The notes beneath the pieces are model-generated. The model saw only the letters and a list, made by a program, of their open reading frames with translations. It was not told where the DNA came from and did not search any database. Shown piece by piece: positions 7,885 to 18,024 of a stretch of DNA of 18,024 nt. Positions within the stretch are counted from its first letter, which is position 1, and the number at the start of each line of letters is the position of its first letter. The DNA is taken from assembly GCA_020217165.1 (NCBI GenBank), contig JAIWOE010000062.1, forward strand, positions 1 through 18,024, read 5' to 3'. The position numbers were made by a program, and so were the translations under genes. This stretch comes from Desulfovibrio sp. Lineage in GTDB: Bacteria > Desulfobacterota > Desulfovibrionia > Desulfovibrionales > Desulfovibrionaceae.

Positions 7885-7910
7885 ATACATAGCACCTCGG
7901 AGTGTACGCC

Positions 7911-9041
7911 GTGCGTTTCGTCTTCTTTTTCCGTCCCTTGGCCCTCCTGGTCATGGCAATGTTGCTGCAGACGGCCGCGGCTCAGGCCGGGACGCGCCAG
8001 ATCACCGATGCCCTGGGTCGGACGGTGGAGGTGCCCCGGGACGTCCGCCACGTCATCGCCTCGGGGTCCGGTTGTCTGCGGCTGCTGACGTATCTGCAGG
8101 GGCAGGACCGCATCGTGGGGGTGGATGATATCGAGGTCCGCCGCCGGCAGTTCGACGCCCGACCCTATGCCCTGGCCAATCCACAGTTCAAGGATTTCCC
8201 AGTCTTCGGTGAGTTCCGCGGTTTTGACCGGCCCGAACAGATTTTGATGCTGAATCCGCAGCCCCAGGTGATCTTCAAGGTCCACAACGCCGGGTTGGGC
8301 ACGGACCCCGAAGAGCTGCAGGCCAAGACGGGCATTCCCGTGGTGGTGGTGGAGTACGGCAACCTGGGCGCCAATCGTGCGGCATTCTATGCCACCCTGC
8401 GGCTCATGGGCGAGGTGCTGGGCCTGCAGCCCCGGGCCGAGGCTGTGGTGGCGTTCTTCGAGACGCGCATTGCCGACCTGCAGGCCCGGGTCAAGGACGT
8501 GCCGGATGCGGCGCGGCCATCGGTGTTCGTGGGGGGCATCGCCTCCCGCGGGCCGCACGGGTTCCAGTCCACGGAGCCGGAGTATCCGCCCTTTGCCTTT
8601 GTCCAGGCGCGCAACTTGGCTGCCGGCGAGAAGGGGTCCCAGGGGGCGCAAGGGGCCGGGGGAGTGGTGGAGGTGGCCAAGGAACAGATTGTGGCCTGGA
8701 ATCCCGACGTGCTGTTTCTGGACCTTTCCACCCTGCAGCTGGGCGATGCCGCCGGCGGCCTGCATGAGCTCAAGACAGATCCCGCCTACCAGACCCTCAC
8801 GGCCGTGCAACAGGGCAGGGTATATGGCGTGCTGCCGTACAACTGGTACAACCAGAATTTCGGTTCCATCCTGGCCAATGCGTACTTCATCGGCTCCCTG
8901 CTATATCCGGACCGCTTTGCCGACGTGGACCCCGCCGAGGAAGCCGATGCCATCTACACATTTCTGGTGGATAAGCCGGTCTTTGCGGACATGAACGCCC
9001 TGTTCGGCAATCGCGCCTTCATTCCCATTCCCCTGCGGTAA
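7911..9041 (+). CDS. Iron-type ABC transporter substrate-binding protein
   Basis: A 376-residue periplasmic protein of the FhuD/BtuF-like class (Peripla_BP_2). A signal peptide runs to about residue 26 (hydrophobic FVFFFRPLALLVMAMLL, then AQA|G). The mature protein opens with ITDALGRTVEVPRDVRHVI, the classic start of this family, followed by GVDDIE, VVVVEYGNL and WNPDVLFLDLS. Family members bind ferric siderophores, haem, cobalamin or metal chelates and deliver them to a FecCD-type permease; the ligand cannot be told from sequence. I prefer GTG at 7911, which has CGGAG eight bases upstream, over GTG at 7902, which overlaps that site. It heads an operon with the permease 4 bases downstream. 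Confidence 0.85.
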   Translation: MRFVFFFRPLALLVMAMLLQTAAAQAGTRQITDALGRTVEVPRDVRHVIASGSGCLRLLTYLQGQDRIVGVDDIEVRRRQFDARPYALANPQFKDFPVFGEFRGFDRPEQILMLNPQPQVIFKVHNAGLGTDPEELQAKTGIPVVVVEYGNLGANRAAFYATLRLMGEVLGLQPRAEAVVAFFETRIADLQARVKDVPDAARPSVFVGGIASRGPHGFQSTEPEYPPFAFVQARNLAAGEKGSQGAQGAGGVVEVAKEQIVAWNPDVLFLDLSTLQLGDAAGGLHELKTDPAYQTLTAVQQGRVYGVLPYNWYNQNFGSILANAYFIGSLLYPDRFADVDPAEEADAIYTFLVDKPVFADMNALFGNRAFIPIPLR

Positions 9042-9045
9042 CGGC

Positions 9046-10113
9046 ATGATGCAGCGTCCTGCCGCCGGCACGGCCGCGGAGTACCGCCGGCATCTCGGCA
9101 GAAAAATCCTGGTGCTGGCCGGACTGGCCCTGGCGGTGCTGGCCATGCTGGCCGTGTCCGTGGCGGTGGGGGCGGCCACCCTGCCCCTGGGGGAGGTGGT
9201 GCGCAGCCTGCTGGGGCTGGAGGTGCCGCGTCAGGTGGAGGTGATCGTCTGGAATATCCGCCTGCCCCAGGCCGTGGCCTGTCTGGTGGCGGGGTGCGGC
9301 CTGGCGGCGGCCGGGGCGGCCATGCAATCCATCCTCCGCAACCCCCTGGGGTCGCCCTTCACCCTGGGCATATCCCATGCCGCAGCCTTTGGAGCGGCGT
9401 TGTCCGTGATGTTTCTGGGTGGCGGAATGATGACCTCTAAGGGTGCCATCGCCATCACCAACCCCTGGCTCACCACCGCGGCGGCCTTTGCCTGCAGCCT
9501 GGCGGCGGCGGGTGTCATCGTGGCCATTTCCAGGCTGCGGGGGGCCTCGCCGGAGGTGATGGTGCTCACCGGGGTGGCCCTGGGGGCCCTGTTCACCGCC
9601 GGCACCATGCTGCTGCAATATTTTGCCGACGACGTGCAGCTGGCGGCCATGGTGTTCTGGACTTTTGGCGACGCTGCCCGGGCCTCCTGGAGGGATTGCG
9701 CCGTCATGGCCGGGGTCACGGGAGCAGTGCTGCTCTTCTTCCTGGCCAGCAGCTGGCAGTACAATGCCATCGACGCCGGTGACGAGACGGCTCGCGGCCT
9801 GGGCGTTCGCGTGGGGCGCGTGCGCATGGCGGGCATGCTGGCGGCCTCCCTGGCCACGGCGGTCATCATTTCGCTCCTGGGCGTCATCGGGTTCGTGGGG
9901 CTGGTGGCGCCGCACATGGTGCGGCGCGTCATCGGCGCGGATCATCGATTCCTGCTGCCCGGCGCTGCCCTGACCGGCGGACTGCTGCTCCAGGCCTCGG
10001 ACACCGCGGCCCGGCTGATGCTGGCGCCGCACGTGCTGCCGGTTTCTGTCCTCACGGCGTTTCTGGGCGCGCCTGCGTTCCTGGCCCTCATCCTTGGGAG
10101 GAGAATGTCATGA
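9046..10113 (+). CDS. FecCD-type ABC transporter permease
   Basis: A 355-residue integral membrane protein with about ten hydrophobic segments. It matches the FecCD/BtuC family: RLPQAVACLVAGCGLAAAGA, MQSILRNPLGSPFTLGIS, and the C-terminal GVIGFVGLVAPHMVRRVIG with DHRFLLPGAALTGG. The GLVAPHMVR loop contacts the ATPase. As a homodimer it forms the channel for siderophore-, haem- or cobalamin-type ligands delivered by the upstream binding protein. The start may be either of two adjacent ATGs, 9046 or 9049. The stop overlaps the ATPase start (ATGA), as expected for subunits made in fixed ratio. Confidence 0.9.
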   Translation: MMQRPAAGTAAEYRRHLGRKILVLAGLALAVLAMLAVSVAVGAATLPLGEVVRSLLGLEVPRQVEVIVWNIRLPQAVACLVAGCGLAAAGAAMQSILRNPLGSPFTLGISHAAAFGAALSVMFLGGGMMTSKGAIAITNPWLTTAAAFACSLAAAGVIVAISRLRGASPEVMVLTGVALGALFTAGTMLLQYFADDVQLAAMVFWTFGDAARASWRDCAVMAGVTGAVLLFFLASSWQYNAIDAGDETARGLGVRVGRVRMAGMLAASLATAVIISLLGVIGFVGLVAPHMVRRVIGADHRFLLPGAALTGGLLLQASDTAARLMLAPHVLPVSVLTAFLGAPAFLALILGRRMS

Positions 10114-10865
10114 TTGTTCAAGCAGATGCCGTCTCGTTCTCCTATGCAGGGCGTCCCGTGCTGCGGGAGGTGTCTTTCCACGCCGCCCCTGGCGAGCTGG
10201 TGGCCATCCTGGGACCCAACGGCGCCGGCAAGACCACACTGCTCAAGTGCATCAATGCCATGCATCGGCCCCTTGCCGGCACCGTGCTGGTGGAGGACGG
10301 CAACGTGCTGCGCATGACGCCGGCGGAGGTGGCCCGGCGGGTGGGCTACGTGGCCCAGCGTTCGGACACGGCGCGGCTGACGGTGTTCGACGCCGTGCTC
10401 CTGGGCCGGCTGCCTCACCTGCGCTGGAAGGCCGGGCCGCGGGATCTGCAGCTGGTGGAAGCCGTGCTGGCCCGCCTGCGCCTGGGCGGCATGGCCCTCC
10501 GCCACATCGACACCCTGAGCGGGGGCGAGCTGCAGCAGGTGTGCGTGGCCAGGGCCCTGGTACAGGAGCCGCGCCTGCTGTTGCTGGACGAGCCCACCAG
10601 TTCTTTGGATTTGAAAAACCAGCTGGAGGTGCTGCGTCTGGTGCGCCGTGCCGTGGATGAAGGCCAGGTGGCGGCGGTGATGACCATGCACGACCTGAAC
10701 GCCGCCCTGCGTTTTGCAGACAAGGCCGTGCTGCTCAAGGAAGGCCGGGTGCTGGCGGCCATGGCCGTGCAGGATATCACCGCCGAGGTGGTGGAGGCCG
10801 TGTACGGCGTGCCCGTTCTCATCCATCAGGTGAACGGGGTGCCGCTGGTGGCGCCCTGTCTGTGA
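10110..10865 (+). CDS. ABC transporter ATPase (FepC/BtuD-like)
   Basis: A 251-residue nucleotide-binding subunit with all core motifs: Walker A GPNGAGKT (35-42), signature LSGGE (136-140), Walker B LLLLDEP (156-162) and switch His194 in MTMHDLNAAL. The order and spacing fit the iron/cobalamin importer class. It energises uptake through the overlapping permease gene. No extra C-terminal regulatory domain is present. It is followed by the FmdE-domain gene after a short gap, so the operon has four genes. Confidence 0.93.
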   Translation: MIVQADAVSFSYAGRPVLREVSFHAAPGELVAILGPNGAGKTTLLKCINAMHRPLAGTVLVEDGNVLRMTPAEVARRVGYVAQRSDTARLTVFDAVLLGRLPHLRWKAGPRDLQLVEAVLARLRLGGMALRHIDTLSGGELQQVCVARALVQEPRLLLLDEPTSSLDLKNQLEVLRLVRRAVDEGQVAAVMTMHDLNAALRFADKAVLLKEGRVLAAMAVQDITAEVVEAVYGVPVLIHQVNGVPLVAPCL

Positions 10866-10894: not shown

Positions 10895-11503
10895 ATGTCT
10901 TGCTCCATTCCGCAGGAAACCATTGACCAATGCATCGCATTCCACGGGCACAGCTGCCCGGGGCTGACCATCGGCATCCGCGCTGCGGAATATGCCCGGA
11001 CGCGTTTGAATCAGGATGGGGGGGCGGAGCTGGTCTGCGTGACGGAAACCGACATGTGCGGGGTGGATGCCATCCAGTTCCTCACCGGGTGCACCGTGGG
11101 CAAGGGGAACATGATCCACCGTGATTACGGGAAGATGGCGTTCTCATTTTTCGATCGGCGCACGGGGGAGGGCGTGCGGCTGCTGCTGCGGCCTGAATCC
11201 CGGCAGGATATCGATGCGGCCCTGGCCCCGCGCCAACGCGCCCTGGACGAGCAATACACCCCCGAAGGGGCCGCCGCCGTGGCTGTCTTGCGCCAGCAGC
11301 TGCAGGACCGCTTCATGACCTTGCCCCTGGACGCCATGTTCGAGGCCCAGCCCCTGCAGCAGGGACCACCGCGTCCGGCCAAGATCCTGGAAAGCTTGAC
11401 CTGCGAGGCCTGCGGGGAAAAGACCATGGAGTCCCGCACCCGGCGGTTTGCCGGGCAGACCCTGTGCATCCCGTGCTTCCAGGCGCGGGAACAGAAGATC
11501 TGA
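10895..11503 (+). CDS. FmdE-domain protein with C-terminal zinc ribbon
   Basis: A 202-residue cytoplasmic protein. The FmdE family core is clear: FHGHSCPGLTIGIRA from residue 16, then TETDMCGVDAIQFLTGCTVG and KGNMIHRDYGK. His17, His19, Cys21, Cys55 and Cys66 are candidate metal ligands. The C-terminus has a zinc ribbon with Cys170, Cys173, Cys191 and Cys194 (CEAC...CIPC). FmdE was named from a molybdenum formylmethanofuran dehydrogenase operon, but most family members lie elsewhere and their role is unsettled. Position at the end of a metal-chelate importer operon suggests handling of the imported metal or cofactor. I prefer ATG at 10895 (AGGAGG with eight-base spacing) over the upstream ATG at 10862. 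Confidence 0.85.
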   Translation: MSCSIPQETIDQCIAFHGHSCPGLTIGIRAAEYARTRLNQDGGAELVCVTETDMCGVDAIQFLTGCTVGKGNMIHRDYGKMAFSFFDRRTGEGVRLLLRPESRQDIDAALAPRQRALDEQYTPEGAAAVAVLRQQLQDRFMTLPLDAMFEAQPLQQGPPRPAKILESLTCEACGEKTMESRTRRFAGQTLCIPCFQAREQKI

Positions 11504-11571: not shown

Positions 11572-11901
11572 TCAACGCGTGGCCGACTCGGGAAGTTCCA
11601 CGACGATGCGGTCAGCCTCTTCCTTGCGCAGCGCCACAAAATATCCGCCAATGCGGACCTCAATGGGGTCCCCCAGGGTGGCCACGCGCACCACTTCCAC
11701 TTCCGCCCCAGGCAAAAATCCCAGGTCCAGGAGCCGTTGGCGCACGGCGCCGCTGGCGCGATGCCGTCGTACCCGGCAGCAGCAGCCGTGGGGGGCGTGA
11801 CGCAGGGTCAGGCCGGGGGCAGCGTCGTGTGGGCAGCCGCAGTGTGTCTCTGCGGCGGGGTGCTGGCCGCGGCGCCGTTTTCCAAACCGATTCCCGAGCA
11901 T
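11572..11901 (-). CDS. feoA: FeoA-domain protein
   Basis: A 109-residue protein. The C-terminal ~75 residues are a FeoA/SH3-like domain: [34 protein letters not shown], then [24 protein letters not shown]. FeoA is a small cytoplasmic partner of the ferrous-iron transporter FeoB; no feoB is in this window. The first ~30 residues form a Cys/His-containing extension (ETHCGCPH) that ordinary FeoA proteins lack. With HGCCC in the domain itself, this gives six cysteines. The start at 11901 is set by GGAGG with four-base spacing on the minus strand; a longer frame upstream would run through the promoter. The Fur-type site at its promoter suggests repression under iron-replete conditions. Confidence 0.85.
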
Positions 11902-11944
11902 GGTGCCTCCGAAAAAATTCCAGAAAGATATGGTTGACGAAATG

Positions 11945-11973
11945 ATGATAATGAAATTAATTCTCGGGGTCAA
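11945..11973 (-). promoter_or_regulatory. feoA promoter with Fur box in the spacer
   Basis: On the minus strand TTGACC (11968-11973), a 17-base spacer and TATCAT (11945-11950) form a near-consensus promoter. GATAATGAAATTAATTCTC (plus strand, 11947-11965) matches the 19-bp Fur consensus at 15 of 19 positions and fills the spacer. A bound repressor would block RNA polymerase. Confidence 0.7.
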
Positions 11974-12040: not shown

Positions 12041-12069
12041 TTGACAATGAAATTCAGTATCGGTAAAAA
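12041..12069 (+). promoter_or_regulatory. Iron-responsive promoter with Fur box in the spacer
   Basis: A consensus TTGACA (12041-12046), a 17-base spacer and TAAAAA (12064-12069) precede the small exported-protein gene. GACAATGAAATTCAGTATC (12043-12061) matches the 19-bp Fur consensus at 15 of 19 positions. It shares the GAyAATGAAATT core with the feoA site about 100 bases away. Confidence 0.7.
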
Positions 12070-12184: not shown

Positions 12185-12499
12185 ATGCGGGTCTTGTTGT
12201 CCATGTTGTTCTGCGTTGCGTTGCTGTGCTCGGCCTCCCTGGCCTTTGCCCACACCCCCTTGTGCTCGTGCTTTGACAACGGTGACGGCACGGTGATGTG
12301 CGAGGGTGGCTTCTCCGACGGCTCCTCGGCCTCGGGCGTGAAGATGGTGGTGAAGGACGCTTCCGGCGCGGTGCTGGAAGAAGGCACGATGAGCGAAGTG
12401 AGCGAATTCACCTTCAAAAAGCCCGCGGGCGATTTCACCGTGCACTTTGAGGCCGGCGAAGGGCATGCCATCATCATCAAGGGCTCGGACATCAAATAA
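12185..12499 (+). CDS. Small exported protein, NikL-like
   Basis: A 104-residue protein. The signal peptide is clear (MRVLLSMLFCVALLCSASLA, cleaved after AFA). The predicted mature form starts HTPLCSCFDNGDGTVMCEG. An N-terminal His and three closely placed Cys could bind metal or form a disulfide. The rest looks like a small beta-sandwich (VKMVVKDASGAVLEEG, FTVHFEAGEGHAIII). It resembles the short periplasmic NikL-type proteins found next to DUF4198/NikK proteins in nickel or cobalt uptake loci, but no NikMNQO transporter is present here. The perfect Shine-Dalgarno and the Fur-type promoter suggest abundant expression under iron limitation. The function of the family is not settled. Confidence 0.75.
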   Translation: MRVLLSMLFCVALLCSASLAFAHTPLCSCFDNGDGTVMCEGGFSDGSSASGVKMVVKDASGAVLEEGTMSEVSEFTFKKPAGDFTVHFEAGEGHAIIIKGSDIK

Positions 12500-12554
12500 T
12501 TTTTTTTGCAGCATGAATGAGAAAGAAAGTCACAGTCAAAATCGAGGAGGATGC

Positions 12555-13379
12555 ATGTTGCGGCGCATGATGCTGGCTCTCGTGCTGGCCCTGGCCATTC
12601 CCGCCACGGCCCAGGCCCATTTTCAAATGCTGTACACCCCCGAAATCGCCCTGAACGAGGGCGGTGAGATGGTCCTGAAGATCGTCTTCACCCACCCCTT
12701 CGACGCTGGCCACACCATGGACATGGGCCCGGTGCAGGAGTTCTACGTGCTGCAGCAGCGTGGTTCTGAAGGCGAGCCCAAAAAGGTGGACCTGAAGCAG
12801 TACCTCAAGGAAATCAAATGGAAAGGTCACAGCAACGCCGCTGTGGCGTATGAGGCCGTGCTGCCCAAGACGGTGGTGCGCTCCATGGGCGACTATGTGT
12901 TCGTCCTCGTGCCGTCCCCCTACCTGGAAAAAGAGGAAGACGCCTACATCCAGCAGATCACCAAGCTGGTGGTCAACGTGGGTGGCGTTCCCGGCAACTG
13001 GTCGGCTCCCGTGGGTCTGCCGGCGGAAATCATCCCCTTTGACAAGCCGTATGCCAACTGGGCCGGTGGCGTGTTCCGCGGCCAGGTGCTTTCCGAAGGC
13101 AAGCCTGTGGAACACGCCGAGCTGGAAGTGGAATACCTGAACCATGAGCCGGACATGAAGGCCAACACGTTCAAGGAACAGGCCGCCGTGACGGCTCCCC
13201 ATGACAGCATGATGACCATGGGTGTTCTGGCCAATGCCCAGGGTGAGTTCACCATCGGCCTGGCCAAGGCCGGCTGGTGGGGCGTGTGCGCCTTGGGCGC
13301 CGGTCCTGAAAAGGAATACCAGGGCAAGGAACTGTCCCAGGATGCCGTGATCTGGGTCAAAGCGTTTGAAATGAAGTAA
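12555..13379 (+). CDS. DUF4198 (NikK-like) periplasmic protein
   Basis: A 274-residue exported protein. The signal peptide MLRRMMLALVLALAIPATAQA is cleaved before HFQMLYTPE, so the mature protein starts with His. DUF4198 features follow: an N-terminal beta-sandwich (EMVLKIVFTHPFDAGHTMDMG) with further His and Met, then a second sandwich (FRGQVLSEGKPVEHAELEVE) and a tail with GEFTIGLAKAGWWGVCALG. Family members are periplasmic and often sit with Ni/Co transport genes, where a metal-binding role has been proposed. Here the neighbours and the shared Fur-type promoter point to iron. GAGGAGG (12544-12550) lies four bases before ATG 12555. It is probably co-transcribed with the small exported-protein gene 55 bases upstream. 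Confidence 0.8.
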   Translation: MLRRMMLALVLALAIPATAQAHFQMLYTPEIALNEGGEMVLKIVFTHPFDAGHTMDMGPVQEFYVLQQRGSEGEPKKVDLKQYLKEIKWKGHSNAAVAYEAVLPKTVVRSMGDYVFVLVPSPYLEKEEDAYIQQITKLVVNVGGVPGNWSAPVGLPAEIIPFDKPYANWAGGVFRGQVLSEGKPVEHAELEVEYLNHEPDMKANTFKEQAAVTAPHDSMMTMGVLANAQGEFTIGLAKAGWWGVCALGAGPEKEYQGKELSQDAVIWVKAFEMK

Positions 13380-13501: not shown

Positions 13502-14260
13502 ATGTTATACGATAAGTTCTTGTACTTGCTGGATATTGGGGAGTTGGCCGCCCCGCCCTGCAAGTGCACCTGCACCTCCATTCACCAGTTTGCCGAGGCA
13601 CTGGGCTGCGCCATCGACGCCAAAGACCATCACACCCGTTGCCATTCGGAACAGGTGGCCGTGCTGGCCTACGCCCTGGCCCTGGAGCACGGCGCTACCC
13701 GGGAAGTCGCCAGCGCCATCCACATAGCCGGACATTTGCACGATCTGGGAAAAATTGCCGTTCCCGACCATATTCTGCTAAAACAAGGTCCCCTCACCCC
13801 TGAGGAGTGGGCGGTGATGAAACTTCATCCCGAAGTGGGGGCCCGCATCGTGGCCCCGGTAAAGGCCTTGAATGAGGAGCAGGGGATTGCGGACATGATT
13901 CTGCACCATCACGAACGCTTTGATGGCCAGGGTTATCCTCACGGCCTGGCCGGGGAGCACATCCCCTTTGGCGCGCGGGTGCTGGCTGTGGCGGATTGCG
14001 TCTCGGCCATGATGCAGGATCGGCCTTACCGCCACGGCGCCTCCCTGCTGGACGCCGCCCAGGAAGTGCGCACCCAGGCCGGCCGGCAGTTTGATCCCGA
14101 TGTGGCCCTGTGTTTCCACAACATCGTCAGTGTGTTCAAACGGCAGACCCCGCGCTGGGACGATTCGGATTTCTTTCTCCATCTTGCCTGTAGGCACGCC
14201 TGCCGCGAGGAACAGCGCGGACAGAACGGGCAGGCTGGCCACGCCGAGGAGGCTGCATGA
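13502..14260 (+). CDS. HD-GYP domain protein, putative cyclic-di-GMP phosphodiesterase
   Basis: A 252-residue cytoplasmic protein that is nearly all catalytic domain. It has TRCHSEQV (metal-ligand His48), HLHDLGK (His80-Asp81), the HHHERFDGQGYP motif (135-146) and VADCVSAMMQDRPYR. These are the conserved HD-GYP signatures for cyclic-di-GMP hydrolysis at a di- or tri-iron centre. The short N-terminus carries CKCTC, an extra metal- or redox-capable Cys cluster, and no receiver or PAS domain. ATG 13502 has AAGGAAA about seven bases upstream. Its stop overlaps the start of the metal P-type ATPase (ATGA), so the two are translationally coupled. This pairing suggests it controls, or senses metal for, the ATPase system. 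Confidence 0.88.
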   Translation: MLYDKFLYLLDIGELAAPPCKCTCTSIHQFAEALGCAIDAKDHHTRCHSEQVAVLAYALALEHGATREVASAIHIAGHLHDLGKIAVPDHILLKQGPLTPEEWAVMKLHPEVGARIVAPVKALNEEQGIADMILHHHERFDGQGYPHGLAGEHIPFGARVLAVADCVSAMMQDRPYRHGASLLDAAQEVRTQAGRQFDPDVALCFHNIVSVFKRQTPRWDDSDFFLHLACRHACREEQRGQNGQAGHAEEAA

Positions 14261-16458
14261 GCGCAATGATCACCATGGTGCACACCGTGCCTGGCCGGGT
14301 GCGGATCAGATGCGGCCACCACCTGCGGGAGGCCCAGGCCCTGGCCGATGGGCTGGCCGGGGTCAAGCACACCCGCGCCAACCCGGCCTGCCGCAGCCTG
14401 GTGGTGCTGTTCGATGCCGGGCAGCTCACCGCCGCGGGCATCCTGGAGGCCCTAGCTGACCTGGCTGGGACGGATTCCCTGATCGCCAACAAGCACCCGG
14501 CGCCTTGCCGGGATCGACAATCTCTGGACCACTGCGCCTGCCCCGCACGACGCATCGAGGAGCCGTCACTGCGGCCCCATGCGGTGCGTTTCGGGGTGCT
14601 CTCCGCCGCCGGCTTGTGGATGCTGGGCCGCAAGGTGTTGCTCTCGGCGGCGGCGCCCGGGCTGCTGTCTCCAGTGGGGGCGGCGGTGCTCTTCGGAGCG
14701 CTGCCGCTCCTTACACGCATGGTGCAGGACTTTAGGCGGGGCAAGGTCAGCCTGGAGTCGTTCCTGGGCGGGGCCATCGTGGCCGCGGCCGGGGCAGGGG
14801 AGGTGGCCACGGCCCTGGAGGTGTTGTGGATCAACACCGGCTCGGACCTGCTCACGGCCCACATGGCCCGCCGGTCCCGGCGCAGCATCAAGGCCATGCT
14901 CAAGGAAACCGCCCACCACACCTTCGTGGTGCGCGATGGGGTGGAAGTGGAGACGCCCACCGCAGCCCTGCAACCCGGGGATATCCTGGCCCTGCATGCC
15001 GGGGAACGCATTCCCGCAGACGGCCTGGTGATTTCCGGCGAAGCCCTGGTGGACAGCTCTTCCATGACCGGCCGTGCGGAGTTGGAAGCCTGCGGCGTTG
15101 GTGCCAGCGTGTACGCTGGCAGTGTGGTGCGGCGCGGGGTCATCCACGTGGAAGCCCGCTGCGTGGGGGAGGAAACCTACCTGGCGCGCATCTTTGACAA
15201 GGTGGAGGCCGGCCTCTCCCACCGTTCCGACATTGAACACATGGCCGATACCCTGGCCCGGCGGACCATCACCATCGGCTTCCTGGTCACGGCGGGCACC
15301 CTGGTGTTCACCCAAAGCCTGTGGCGGGCGTTCACCGTGCTGCTGGTGATGGCCTGCCCGTGCGCCACCTCCCTGGCGGCGTCCTCGGCCATCAATGCGG
15401 CCATCGCCGGCGGGGCGCGGGAACGGATCATCTTCAAGGGCGGACGTCCCCTGGAGCGCTTTGCCGGGGTGGATGCCGTGTGCCTGGACAAAACCGGCAC
15501 CCTCACCGGGGCGCGGCCGCACCTGGCCGCCATTCACACCATGGATGGCCTGGACGAACACGCCGTGCTGCAGCTGGCGCTTTCCGCCGAGGCGCACAAC
15601 CACCATCCCCTGGCCGAGGCCATCAAGGACCATGGCGCCTCCCTGGGCCTGGAGCCCCAGGGGCACGAGCGTTGTGAATATTTCCTGGGCCAGGGCGTAC
15701 ACGCCGTGGTGGACGGTCAGGACGTGCTGGTTGGCAACTACAAGTTGTTGCAACGGTTTGATATTCCCTTTCCGCAGGGGGATTTGCGGGTCAGCGCCAT
15801 GCAGGCGGACGGCCTGACCGTGCTGTTCCTGGCCCGGCAGGGCGCGGTGCAGGGCCTCTTTGGCGTGGCCAACCCCATGCGCCGGGATGCCGGCCTGGTG
15901 GTGGAGTATTTCCGGGACAACGCAGTGGACGTGCACCTGGTCACCGGCGACGAAGCCTTGACCGCCCAGGCCCTGGCGCAGGAGCTGCGCATTCCCAACC
16001 TGCTGGTGTCTGCCTTGCCGGAGGACAAGGCCCGGCTGATGGCCGAACTGCGTCGGCAGGGCAAACGGCCAGCCATGGTGGGGGACGGTGTGAACGACGC
16101 ACTGGCCATGGTGGAGGCGGAAGTAGGTGTGGCCCTGGGCTCCCATGGCAACGAGGCTGCCCTGGAGGCCGCGGACATCGCCCTCATGGGAGAGGACCTG
16201 GAAGGCGTGGTGCGGGCGCACCTGCTGTCTCAACGGACCATCCGCATCATCCACGAGAATTTCTGGCTCGCCACGGGCAGCAACATCCTGGGCGGCCTGG
16301 CCGGCGCCCTGGGGCTCCTGGGGCCGGTGGCGGCCGGGCTGCTGCACATCGGCCATACCTCGGCCGTGCTGCTCAACTCCGCGCGGTTAATGCAGGTGAA
16401 AAAAGCACATCCTGTAAAGAAACGTAAAACCACCCAGCCAGTAACACAATTTGCATGA
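14257..16458 (+). CDS. Heavy-metal P1B-type ATPase, ferrosome FezB-like candidate
   Basis: A 733-residue membrane pump. Residues 5-70 form an HMA-like domain with HTVPGRVRIR but no CxxC. A Cys-containing linker (CRDRQSLDHCAC) follows. About four membrane segments span roughly 106-190. Then come the actuator domain, two more segments with the intramembrane CPC (367-369), phosphorylation site DKTGT (Asp411), nucleotide-domain His450-Pro451, hinge GDGVND (609-614), and two final segments with HTSAVLLNSARL. The actuator loop reads TGR (271-273) where almost all P-type ATPases have TGE. Iron-linked neighbours and the PGR-type N-domain favour the P1B group (including P1B-6, FezB) that supplies metal to ferrosomes. 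A Cu, Zn or Co exporter is the alternative. The basic tail ends KKRKTTQPVTQ. Confidence 0.88.
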   Translation: MSAMITMVHTVPGRVRIRCGHHLREAQALADGLAGVKHTRANPACRSLVVLFDAGQLTAAGILEALADLAGTDSLIANKHPAPCRDRQSLDHCACPARRIEEPSLRPHAVRFGVLSAAGLWMLGRKVLLSAAAPGLLSPVGAAVLFGALPLLTRMVQDFRRGKVSLESFLGGAIVAAAGAGEVATALEVLWINTGSDLLTAHMARRSRRSIKAMLKETAHHTFVVRDGVEVETPTAALQPGDILALHAGERIPADGLVISGEALVDSSSMTGRAELEACGVGASVYAGSVVRRGVIHVEARCVGEETYLARIFDKVEAGLSHRSDIEHMADTLARRTITIGFLVTAGTLVFTQSLWRAFTVLLVMACPCATSLAASSAINAAIAGGARERIIFKGGRPLERFAGVDAVCLDKTGTLTGARPHLAAIHTMDGLDEHAVLQLALSAEAHNHHPLAEAIKDHGASLGLEPQGHERCEYFLGQGVHAVVDGQDVLVGNYKLLQRFDIPFPQGDLRVSAMQADGLTVLFLARQGAVQGLFGVANPMRRDAGLVVEYFRDNAVDVHLVTGDEALTAQALAQELRIPNLLVSALPEDKARLMAELRRQGKRPAMVGDGVNDALAMVEAEVGVALGSHGNEAALEAADIALMGEDLEGVVRAHLLSQRTIRIIHENFWLATGSNILGGLAGALGLLGPVAAGLLHIGHTSAVLLNSARLMQVKKAHPVKKRKTTQPVTQFA

Positions 16459-16475
16459 TAGTAATAATCATTGCA
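16457..16475. promoter_or_regulatory. Fur-box-like site at the end of the ATPase gene
   Basis: GATAGTAATAATCATTGCA matches the 19-bp Fur consensus at 14 of 19 positions. The adjoining GTTATCAT extends it, suggesting overlapping Fur hexamers up to 16483. It overlaps the ATPase stop codon and precedes the small HMA-like gene, so a second iron-controlled promoter is likely. TATCAT at 16478-16483 could be its -10, but no clear -35 was found. Confidence 0.6.
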
Positions 16476-16621
16476 GTTATCATGGGTTGTCAAGGATTCT
16501 CAGCGGGGCTAGCGTGGCAATGAACGTGCCGGATCAGGATGATTTGCGTCAGAGAATACATGGGTCCGGTGTCATCAACAGCGTCCACGGCGAGACCGCT
16601 GGGCCGCGAAAGGACAAGGCA

Positions 16622-16942
16622 ATGAATCCGAAAGACCTTCTCGTGCTGCGCCAGTATGCCACAGTGGCGCACCACATTCCGGGACGGCTGCGGCTGGTGT
16701 TTGATCCGGCCATCCAGAAGCACCCGTCCTTTGCCACGTTGCGGGAGTCCGTGGGCATGCTGGCCGGCGTCAAGGGGACGCGGGTCAACGTCATGGCCAG
16801 GACCATGGTGCTGGAATACCATCCGGACATCATCCCCTTTGCGGTGTTGCAGGACATCTTCGCGCACCAGTCTTCGGACGAGCATGTATTGCATTGCGCG
16901 TTGCAGCTTGTGTCTCCCGAGGCCCAGCGCTGCGTGCAGTAG
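16622..16942 (+). CDS. Small stand-alone HMA-like domain protein
   Basis: A 106-residue protein made of one ferredoxin-like domain. HHIPGRLRL (17-25) and GVKGTRVNVMA align with HTVPGRVRIR and GVKHTRANPA in the N-terminal domain of the upstream ATPase, so the two are paralogous. The CxxC of copper-type HMA domains is absent, so metal binding, if any, would use His residues; an RNA/protein-contact or membrane-recruitment role is also possible. AAGGA lies seven bases before ATG 16622. An in-frame ATG at 16520 would add 34 polar residues but has a weak ribosome site. The gap 16459-16621 otherwise holds only the Fur-like site. A FezC-like role is possible but not shown. Confidence 0.75.
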   Translation: MNPKDLLVLRQYATVAHHIPGRLRLVFDPAIQKHPSFATLRESVGMLAGVKGTRVNVMARTMVLEYHPDIIPFAVLQDIFAHQSSDEHVLHCALQLVSPEAQRCVQ

Positions 16943-16983
16943 GCAGTTCTTCACCCCCAGCATGGAAGAAGGAGAGAGGACGC

Positions 16984-17832
16984 ATGAACGAAATGGGCTT
17001 TCCCCAGTACGCCCCGCCGCCGGAACAGGCCGCCGCGGGGCCGATGTATGGGCAGGAACAGATGAACGCGCCGCAGCAGATGCCCGGCCAAATGCCCGGC
17101 CAGGCGCCCCAGGCCGCTCCCCAGGCCGCTCCCCAGGCCGAACCGGAAGGCGGCTGGCAGTACGGCAAGAAAAACGGCGGCGGCGAGGATGCCGCCAAGT
17201 CCTGCGGCGAGGATGCCGCCGTGGCCCAGGCACAGTACATGTACCAGGCTCCGCAAGCTCCCCAGGCCCCCCAAGCTCCCAAACATGAGCAGTACATGTA
17301 CCAGGCTCCCCCGGCGCAGGCGCCGCAATACGGCCAGCCGGCAGCCGCGCAATACATGTACGGTCAGCCCCAGGGCATGCCTACCTTTGTTCCCCAATAC
17401 GGCCAGCCGGCGGCTGCGCAGTACATGTACGGCCCAGGGCCGCAGCAGGGCGCTGCGCCGGGCCAGGCTGCCTATCAGGCTCCCTATCAGGCTCCCTATC
17501 AGGCTCCCTATCAGGGGCCGGGCCAGATGCCCCAGGCCCCTTCCCACAGCAGCGGTGGCGGGTGCGGGTGTGGCAAGCATGACGAGGCCGCCGGAGCGCA
17601 GGGCCTCGGGCACATGATGGGTCTGGTGAACGACATCATGAGCGGCCGTACGCCCAATCCCTCCTCCATGATGGGCATGCTGGAAAGCTGTTCCGCCCAA
17701 TTCTGGAAGGGGGCTGCCGTGGGCGCGGCCCTGGCCATCCTGCTTACCAACAACGCCGTCAAGGACGCCCTGGCCGGCATGGTCGGCGGCTTCATGGGTG
17801 CCGGCCAACCTTCCGCCCCTCAAGGAGAATAG
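16984..17832 (+). CDS. Pro/Gln/Tyr-rich repeat protein with hydrophobic C-terminus
   Basis: A 282-residue protein with two parts. Residues 1 to ~190 are low complexity, rich in Pro, Gln, Ala, Tyr and Met, with four QYMY motifs, two YGQPAAAQYMYG blocks, and runs of QAP and YQAP. A short SGGGCGCGKHDE links to the second part. This contains GLGHMMGLVNDIMSG, then a glycine/alanine-rich hydrophobic stretch, FWKGAAVGAALAILLTNN, and AGMVGGFMGAG. This build suggests a disordered surface or condensate-forming region anchored to a membrane, perhaps a ferrosome membrane. There is no signal peptide. The start at 16984 has GGAGAGAGGA upstream. It lies 42 bases after the HMA-like gene and 4 before the next. 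Not recognised as a named family. Confidence 0.8.
   Translation: MNEMGFPQYAPPPEQAAAGPMYGQEQMNAPQQMPGQMPGQAPQAAPQAAPQAEPEGGWQYGKKNGGGEDAAKSCGEDAAVAQAQYMYQAPQAPQAPQAPKHEQYMYQAPPAQAPQYGQPAAAQYMYGQPQGMPTFVPQYGQPAAAQYMYGPGPQQGAAPGQAAYQAPYQAPYQAPYQGPGQMPQAPSHSSGGGCGCGKHDEAAGAQGLGHMMGLVNDIMSGRTPNPSSMMGMLESCSAQFWKGAAVGAALAILLTNNAVKDALAGMVGGFMGAGQPSAPQGE
17110..17520 (+). repeat. Nested short repeats in the Pro/Gln-rich gene
   Basis: Tandem 12-mers CAGGCCGCTCCC lie at 17110-17121 and 17122-17133, and TATCAGGCTCCC three times at 17473-17508 with a partial fourth. Dispersed repeats include a 15-mer at 17182-17196 and 17206-17220, a 20-mer at 17233-17252 and 17290-17309, and a near-identical 38-mer at 17326-17363 and 17395-17432. 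All keep the frame, which suggests growth by duplication. Confidence 0.85.
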
Positions 17833-17836
17833 GATC

Positions 17837-18024
17837 ATGACCAAGCAGCATTATGCCATGTCTTCTTCCGTGGCCACCGTGGCTCCTGTTTCCCGCGTGG
17901 CGTTGGGCGCGGGGGTGTTCGGGGCCGTGTTGGGCGCCTCCGCCGGTCTGGCCGAAGGCATCGCCGGCTACCGCGCCGGCACCATGGACAAGCAACAGGC
18001 CGCCATGCACACCCTCAAGGAAGC
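17837..18024 (+). CDS. Small glycine-zipper membrane protein, 3' end outside window
   Basis: The gene starts at ATG 17837, with AGGA upstream, four bases after the previous stop, and is open to the window end. The 62 visible residues begin with a polar stretch (MTKQHYAMSSSVATVAP). A hydrophobic helix follows with GxxxG-type spacing (VALGAGVFGAVLGASAGLAE), then GIAGYRAGTMDKQQAAMH, which looks amphipathic. The glycine/alanine pattern resembles the hydrophobic stretch in the gene before it, and membrane proteins that pack or curve lipid layers. It could be a FezA-like or other ferrosome membrane component. No family was recognised with confidence, and the missing 3' part may hold more. Confidence 0.75.
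   Translation, partial: MTKQHYAMSSSVATVAPVSRVALGAGVFGAVLGASAGLAEGIAGYRAGTMDKQQAAMHTLKE

Follow-up and report, generated by a model that had tools for sequence, protein, structure and literature searches.

A probable ferrosome-type (fez) gene cluster with two P1B ATPases at the end of a Desulfovibrio contig

Gene layout of the cluster

Ferrosomes are small membrane compartments that store iron in bacteria. Their ATPase FezB, which bears the class label P1B-6, is already known, and the homologous fez cluster of D. magneticus builds organelles. We analyzed an 18,024-base stretch of DNA from Desulfovibrio sp. (the window), which makes up the whole of contig C199; the genome has an estimated completeness of 87%. 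The window probably contains one end of a fez-type cluster that builds ferrosomes and belongs to a class with two P1B pumps. Five plus-strand frames lie in a row from position 13502. The first encodes a stand-alone HD-GYP protein (13502..14260; Pfam HD_5, 126 bits), which is likely a cyclic-di-GMP phosphodiesterase judging from the HD, HHER, and DGQGYP residues in its translation. Its end is overlapped by 4 bases by the start of the gene for a P1B ATPase with an N-terminal PGR domain, here called pump 1 (14257..16458). These are followed by the genes for a 106-residue stand-alone PGR/HMA_2-type domain protein (16622..16942), a 282-residue Pro/Gln-rich protein with a C-terminal hydrophobic, putatively membrane-spanning segment (16984..17832), and a glycine-zipper, MamC-like membrane protein, of which the first 62 residues are present (17837..18024). 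Since the window is a whole contig, this fifth gene is truncated at its end. A first-pass annotation of the same DNA had described this row of genes and a PGR motif in two of the products; all the frames were present at those places, and the motif was read from the translations as HTVPGRVR in the ATPase and HHIPGRLR in the stand-alone protein.

The annotation had also proposed reading beyond position 18024, where the cluster continues on contig C173 of the same genome and, as a whole, in a same-genus genome (G001). At its start, C173 carries on the minus strand the final codons of a gene whose end resembles that of the M. gigas-type glycine-zipper copy, and the genes from A1 onward were located on it. 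G001 consists of two contigs, is near-complete, and holds the entire cluster; we presume it to be Megalodesulfovibrio gigas. Electron-dense granules are known in D. gigas. Downstream of the glycine-zipper gene in G001 are, in this order, the genes for A1, a 77-residue protein, a second P1B ATPase, a PP2C-type phosphatase, FeoB, a SiaB-family kinase, SiaC, and a GGDEF protein. A1 consists of 131 residues with a Tyr/Gln-rich head, one membrane segment, and a charged helix. Genes in this and the other relative loci were called by a home-made gene caller.

The two P1B ATPases

To place the two ATPases, an unrooted tree of 50 sequences was examined, consisting of 47 rows from a quicker 104-row tree and three added references; P1B-3, -5, and -7 references are absent from it. 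Left out of the 104-row tree are five duplicate loci, eight gamma loci, proteins shorter than 600 residues, and a number of pumps of the Cu type and other types. The 50 rows fell into three blocks, namely FezB (23 rows, support 100/99), the window type (the window ATPase and ten relatives, 11 rows, 100/100), and exporters (16 rows, 100/99), the last of which comprised CopA, CupF, ZntA, PbrA, CadA, CzcP, and unnamed pumps of relatives. All 24 window-type rows were likewise together, apart from FezB, in the 104-row tree. Because the trees are unrooted, they make no statement on which block is nearest to that of the window. Pump 1 belongs to a clade with full support that is distinct both from FezB and from the tested Cu, Zn, and Co pumps.

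The metal-site columns also differed between the blocks. All 11 window-type rows carried C-P-C-A-T (CPCAT) and two His residues (HxxH), and H697, H700, N707, and S708 of pump 1 were kept in all of them. The sixth-helix motif of pump 1 is A-C-P-C-A-T and not the D-[FY]-S-C of FezB, which was found in 20 of the 23 FezB rows with A or V replacing S in the other 3; every FezB row had a single His. At the eighth-helix metal column, His was present in 11/11 window-type rows, Met in 10/10 Cu pumps, and Asp in 3/3 Zn pumps. CzcP shares the His at this column with pump 1 but has S-P-C in place of C-P-C. The N-terminal PGR domain is common to pump 1 and the D. magneticus-type FezB, in which it reads HDIPGRMR. 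Because of its separate tree block and differing metal-site columns, pump 1 is neither FezB nor one of the tested exporter types. The first-pass annotation had taken the window ATPase for FezB, which it is not, and had regarded firm grouping with copper, zinc, or cobalt exporters, together with small proteins showing no link to fez loci, as fatal to a ferrosome reading; pump 1 grouped with no exporter tested, and the small proteins are linked to fez loci.

The FezB ortholog is the second ATPase, which lies outside the window on C173, falls in the FezB clade (100/99), and bears the motif D-F-S-C. Besides this second ATPase, the 23 rows of the clade include the FezB of the D. magneticus type and the ATPases from Shewanella and Vibrio. 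In the D. magneticus-type locus (L123), the gene order is the 86-residue protein, the ATPase, an HMA_2-plus-hairpin protein (FezC), and an HD-GYP protein, and it is a longer start of the ATPase that carries HDIPGRMR. FezB-type ATPases of either class (E ≤ 1e-150) were found in 184 of 288 Desulfovibrionaceae genomes, drafts included.

A third P1B ATPase, related to FezB, was observed in Desulfovibrionaceae after FezB and a FeoA-triple gene (L036, L048, L062, L051, L063, L064, and L128), with A or V replacing S in the D-[FY]-S-C motif. It is adjoined in L051, L063, L064, and L128 by a divergent gene set that includes a further glycine-zipper gene and a further HMA_2-type gene. The FeoA-triple gene encodes a protein of about 245 residues with three FeoA domains (e.g., L036, 13603-14340). 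It comes directly after FezB in most loci of Thermodesulfobacteriota and Deferribacterota, 16 of the 20 non-proteobacterial loci described below having it there, but not in G001.

Small proteins and their distribution

Profile comparisons of the small proteins with fez loci, which the annotation had recommended, revealed several links. The stand-alone PGR/HMA_2-type domain matched the N-terminus of the D. magneticus-type FezC (hhalign, 91%, E 1e-6), and its family conserves HH.PGR.R, N, and Y, with H17, H18, G21, R22, R24, N56, and Y66 invariant in 18/18 rows. The 77-residue family matched the C-terminal hairpin of the same FezC (98%, E 2e-13). Two His residues 14 columns apart were present in all 22 rows of the 77-residue family, two of which represent one gene, and in 5/5 FezC types. 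The two halves of FezC correspond to two separate proteins, the PGR/HMA_2-type protein in the window and the 77-residue two-His hairpin protein on C173. FezC of another species binds haem and is related to DUF4405 cytochromes, according to a published report (PMC10979944).

A1 against a related group of proteins from other Desulfovibrionaceae gave 87%, and the C-terminus of the Pro/Gln-rich protein matched A1 (97%, E 1e-10). Of twelve pairs of small membrane families presumed to be unrelated, eleven gave less than 3%, and one, the Pro-rich C-terminus against the 86-residue protein, gave 32%. The Pro/Gln-rich family was found beside FezB from Desulfovibrionaceae to Vibrio. A C-x-C-G-x-H motif, which might bind metal, was observed in the Pro/Gln-rich protein of 7 of 40 loci, namely the window (17500-17600), L034, L039, L056, L060, L126, and L129, of which L056 and L126 have one sequence, and was absent in the others; L045, L050, and L057 were left out of this table.

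The glycine-zipper protein was compared with the NCBIfam model of the magnetosome membrane protein MamC (NF038051). The model covered 74 to 91 of its 97 positions in 10/10 full-length loci from three phyla, with scores of 30 to 60 bits and E-values of 3e-7 to 2e-16; the truncated piece in the window scored 26.2 bits. None reached the curated cut-off of 100 bits, the best score being 62.1 bits. In 34 relative genomes the model gave five matches, four of which were the glycine-zipper protein, and it gave none in 14 control genomes. The glycine-zipper protein is therefore taken as distant kin of MamC on the basis of these profile matches, which would not in itself prove a shared function. A second MamC-model match, at 62 bits the highest of all, was observed away from the fez cluster of genome G015 (L043; G015:C62:1246-1509).

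A scan of public genomes with A1 yielded 42 named loci. Across all the loci used in the analysis, L050 repeats the contig of G024 and L126 repeats L056. Twenty loci belong to Thermodesulfobacteriota, Deferribacterota, and one genome labelled Myxococcota, and 18 of these have the window-type ATPase; of the other two, L064 begins past the place of pump 1 and L065 is without gene calls. The remaining 22 loci are from gamma- and alphaproteobacteria, namely Vibrio, Photobacterium, Shewanella, Marichromatium, Xanthobacter, and Pseudochelatococcus. All 22 contain a FezB-type ATPase (one in two pieces), 20 contain the glycine-zipper gene, and the HMA_2-type gene was called in 13, with no full-length window-type ATPase within the stretches fetched. 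Where all were called, the order was HMA_2-type, Pro-rich, glycine-zipper, A1, and ATPase; often a further PGR-type gene of about 120 residues (15 distinct sequences) brought the gene count to six, the number reported for the fez operon of S. putrefaciens and R. palustris.

Pump 1 and A1 occurred together. In the 288 Desulfovibrionaceae genomes, the window-type ATPase (E ≤ 1e-170) and A1 (E ≤ 1e-3) were each detected in 45, with both in 43, one only in 2 and 2, and neither in 241. Of the exceptions, G015 has its locus at a contig edge, G236 is a draft of 84% completeness, G187 has a weak A1 match (7e-4), and G303 has no evident explanation; the A1 match of G204, one of the 43 genomes with both, is also weak (3e-5). 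In a Solidesulfovibrio-type genus (14 genomes), 5 genomes had the two-pump class, 7 had the D. magneticus class, and 2 had neither at the cut-off used; in these genomes the two classes look like alternatives. Solidesulfovibrio alcoholivorans (L056) also has the two-pump class. The classes are not strictly exclusive, because G098, a genome of another genus, holds on another contig a second FezB-type ATPase with a score like that of the D. magneticus class.

Neighbouring genes, interpretation, and related systems

Upstream of the cluster, the window carries genes related to iron import, as the first-pass annotation had proposed. A Peripla_BP_2 importer subunit (7902-9041, Pfam) is followed by importer permease and ATP-binding genes, which were assigned by reading of the sequence (9046-10865). 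The FeoA-domain protein is encoded on the minus strand (11572..11973; Pfam FeoA, 75 bits); these coordinates are those of the longest frame, and a start at 11745 would give a shorter protein. A gene for an FmdE-domain protein carrying a zinc finger of the DksA/TraR type (10895-11503, Pfam) lies between those of the importer and FeoA. The plus strand then encodes a NikL-like small protein (12185..12499; NCBIfam NF058648, 48.8 bits, below the cut-off of 100) and a DUF4198 protein (12555..13379; Pfam, 181 bits). This pair (12185-13379) is recurrent beside FeoA/FeoB and fez clusters of both classes, and the NikL-like gene also lies beside DUF4198 in L034, L037, L038, L042, L054, and L058.

Fur-like sites were scored against a 19-base consensus. 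Two sites with 4 mismatches lie in the stretch between the FeoA and NikL-like genes (11947..11965 and 12043-12061), and one with 5 mismatches lies between pump 1 and the HMA_2-type gene (16457..16475). In all 60 block shuffles of the window the best site had 6 or more mismatches. Sites of equal quality occur in the corresponding two intergenic stretches of G001, those in the gap between pump 1 and the HMA_2-type gene having 5 mismatches. These sites suggest putative Fur control of the cluster. The fez genes of C. difficile are Fur-repressed (PMC12574912).

For the HD-GYP protein, 14 genomes chosen for holding fez clusters were surveyed. A clear ortholog (at least 178 bits, the next best of any being 146) was present in 13 of them, and none was found in G011. 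In 8 genomes, D. magneticus-type loci included, its distance from a fez ATPase was 0.6 to 6.8 kb; in 5 it lay elsewhere. SiaC was present in 56 of the 288 Desulfovibrionaceae genomes, that is, in 20 of the 45 with the window-type ATPase and 36 of the 243 without it. For the 20 genomes with both, reading of the coordinates by hand placed SiaC less than 10 kb from a fez ATPase in 10, at 12 to 22 kb in G239, G270, and G271, and on other contigs in seven. The gene order around SiaC differed among L034, L036, and L038. Such proximity would rarely arise if genes were placed at random in a 3- to 5-Mb genome, although the kinship of the genomes is not corrected for in this estimate.

The assignment as a ferrosome cluster, which had been put forward in the first-pass annotation, has gained in substance because the small proteins recur beside FezB in Shewanella, Vibrio, Photobacterium, and Marichromatium and because both halves of FezC were matched, with FezB itself on C173. 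The same annotation had considered the HD-GYP and Pro/Gln-rich proteins as additions to the described set; this does not hold, since the latter has counterparts in the gamma operons and an HD-GYP gene also adjoins the D. magneticus-type fez genes. In the proposed mechanism, Fe(II) would enter the cell by FeoAB and the other importers and would be loaded into a membrane vesicle by FezB. The two-His hairpin protein could bind haem and pass electrons, with the PGR/HMA_2-type protein as the other part of FezC, and the Pro/Gln-rich, MamC-like, and A1 membrane proteins may shape or coat the vesicle. Pump 1 would probably feed the same vesicle via its different metal site (CPC and HxxH), supplying either a second metal or, under different conditions, iron; from their linkage, we lean slightly towards pump 1 acting at the same compartment as FezB. 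Fur would repress the cluster when iron is plentiful, and the HD-GYP protein and, where present, SiaABCD might tie it to cyclic-di-GMP. From the neighbouring genes, such cyclic-di-GMP control is a tentative proposal that we regard as somewhat doubtful.

Several points weigh against the ferrosome reading or parts of it. The window proteins scored below the Pfam cut-off of 30 bits for HMA_2, the stand-alone PGR/HMA_2-type protein at 21.5 bits, structure modelling gave no decisive match, and A1 gave no reliable match to the 86-residue protein of the D. magneticus-type cluster (10.5%, four rows). The comparisons used the D. magneticus-type locus and Shewanella, Vibrio, and other loci in place of the proven fez genes of S. 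putrefaciens, R. palustris, and C. difficile, and the genome of L123 is presumed to be that of D. magneticus RS-1. The shared compartment of the two pumps is a proposal drawn from their linkage.

Three other explanations were weighed against a two-pump ferrosome cluster. The locus might be a metal-efflux or resistance island, with pump 1 exporting Cu, Zn, or a different metal through the cell membrane and having the fez genes next to it by chance. CPC is indeed the motif of the Cu and Zn pumps (10/10 and 3/3 rows, respectively), and among NCBIfam models pump 1 exceeded the cut-off of the general heavy-metal ATPase model only. Its position outside the block of CopA, CupF, ZntA, PbrA, CadA, and CzcP, its His where Cu pumps have Met and Zn pumps have Asp, and its occurrence with A1 in 43 of the 47 genomes having either nevertheless make this explanation very unlikely. 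We consider equally improbable an arrangement with no organelle, in which the two pumps would join the small proteins in a cell-membrane complex that detoxifies iron by efflux. The sequence cannot tell a vesicle from the cell membrane, and the cluster is known here from its genes alone; as in D. magneticus, however, clusters homologous to it give rise to organelles in S. putrefaciens and R. palustris (PMC12016538 and PMC12748827).

The third explanation concerns the signalling genes, which may be chance neighbours with no part in the control of the organelle. It would account for the lack of linkage in 5 of the 13 genomes with an HD-GYP ortholog, for the absence of SiaC from 25 of the 45 pump 1 genomes, and for the 10 genomes, of the 20 with both, in which SiaC lies on a different contig or more than 10 kb away. 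It fits less well with one orthologous HD-GYP protein lying close to fez ATPases of both classes in 8 of 14 genomes, or with SiaC within 10 kb in half of the 20 genomes in three gene orders, uncorrected for kinship as these are. We judge it a possibility of the same modest standing as cyclic-di-GMP control itself.

Ferrosomes have been proven in few bacteria, and the two-pump fez cluster bears on how their membrane is formed, which metals enter, and how they are switched on. It offers a second pump with a different metal site and a FezC split into separately testable pieces; the MamC-like protein is a candidate part common to ferrosomes and magnetosomes, and cyclic-di-GMP is suggested as a switch. 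These questions can probably be addressed in a cultivated organism, because the near-complete same-genus genome carries the whole cluster. In the literature searched, which was available in part and outside of which the founding ferrosome papers lie, a two-pump class, a separate ATPase clade of this kind, a split FezC, kinship with MamC, and cyclic-di-GMP neighbours were not mentioned. A bolder idea, which we regard as rather unlikely in its entirety, is that pump 1 founds an undescribed P1B class working only as the second pump of ferrosomes, which would give a two-pump iron organelle under cyclic-di-GMP, and that MamC and the glycine-zipper protein are of common ancestry, which would give magnetosomes and ferrosomes a membrane-building part in common.

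The cluster resembles four known systems to different degrees. Pfam models of the SiaB-family kinase and SiaC in G001 scored above their cut-offs, and a SpoIIE-type phosphatase and a GGDEF gene adjoin them as in the SiaABCD pathway, whereas the equivalog cut-offs for SiaA, SiaB, and SiaC were missed and, in the Megalodesulfovibrio-type cluster, siaA and siaB are separated by the FeoB gene. With magnetosome MamC, compared via the NF038051 model only, the glycine-zipper protein shares most of the model positions but scores below the cut-off. Grant et al. (2022) reportedly described a six-gene fez operon in S. putrefaciens and R. palustris. In R. palustris the six fez genes are RPA2333-2338 (PMC12016538). 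The Shewanella, Vibrio, Photobacterium, and Marichromatium loci, which were compared in place of the published operons themselves, have the same small families in the same order before one FezB; the present cluster differs in its extra ATPase of a second clade, its 77-residue two-His hairpin protein, and its iron-import and signalling genes. The D. magneticus-type cluster (L123) has one pump, a fused FezC, and an 86-residue protein without a reliable counterpart here, and no glycine-zipper or Pro/Gln-rich gene was called beside it, but it shares with the present cluster the FezB clade, the HMA_2-type and hairpin parts of FezC, and the neighbouring HD-GYP gene.

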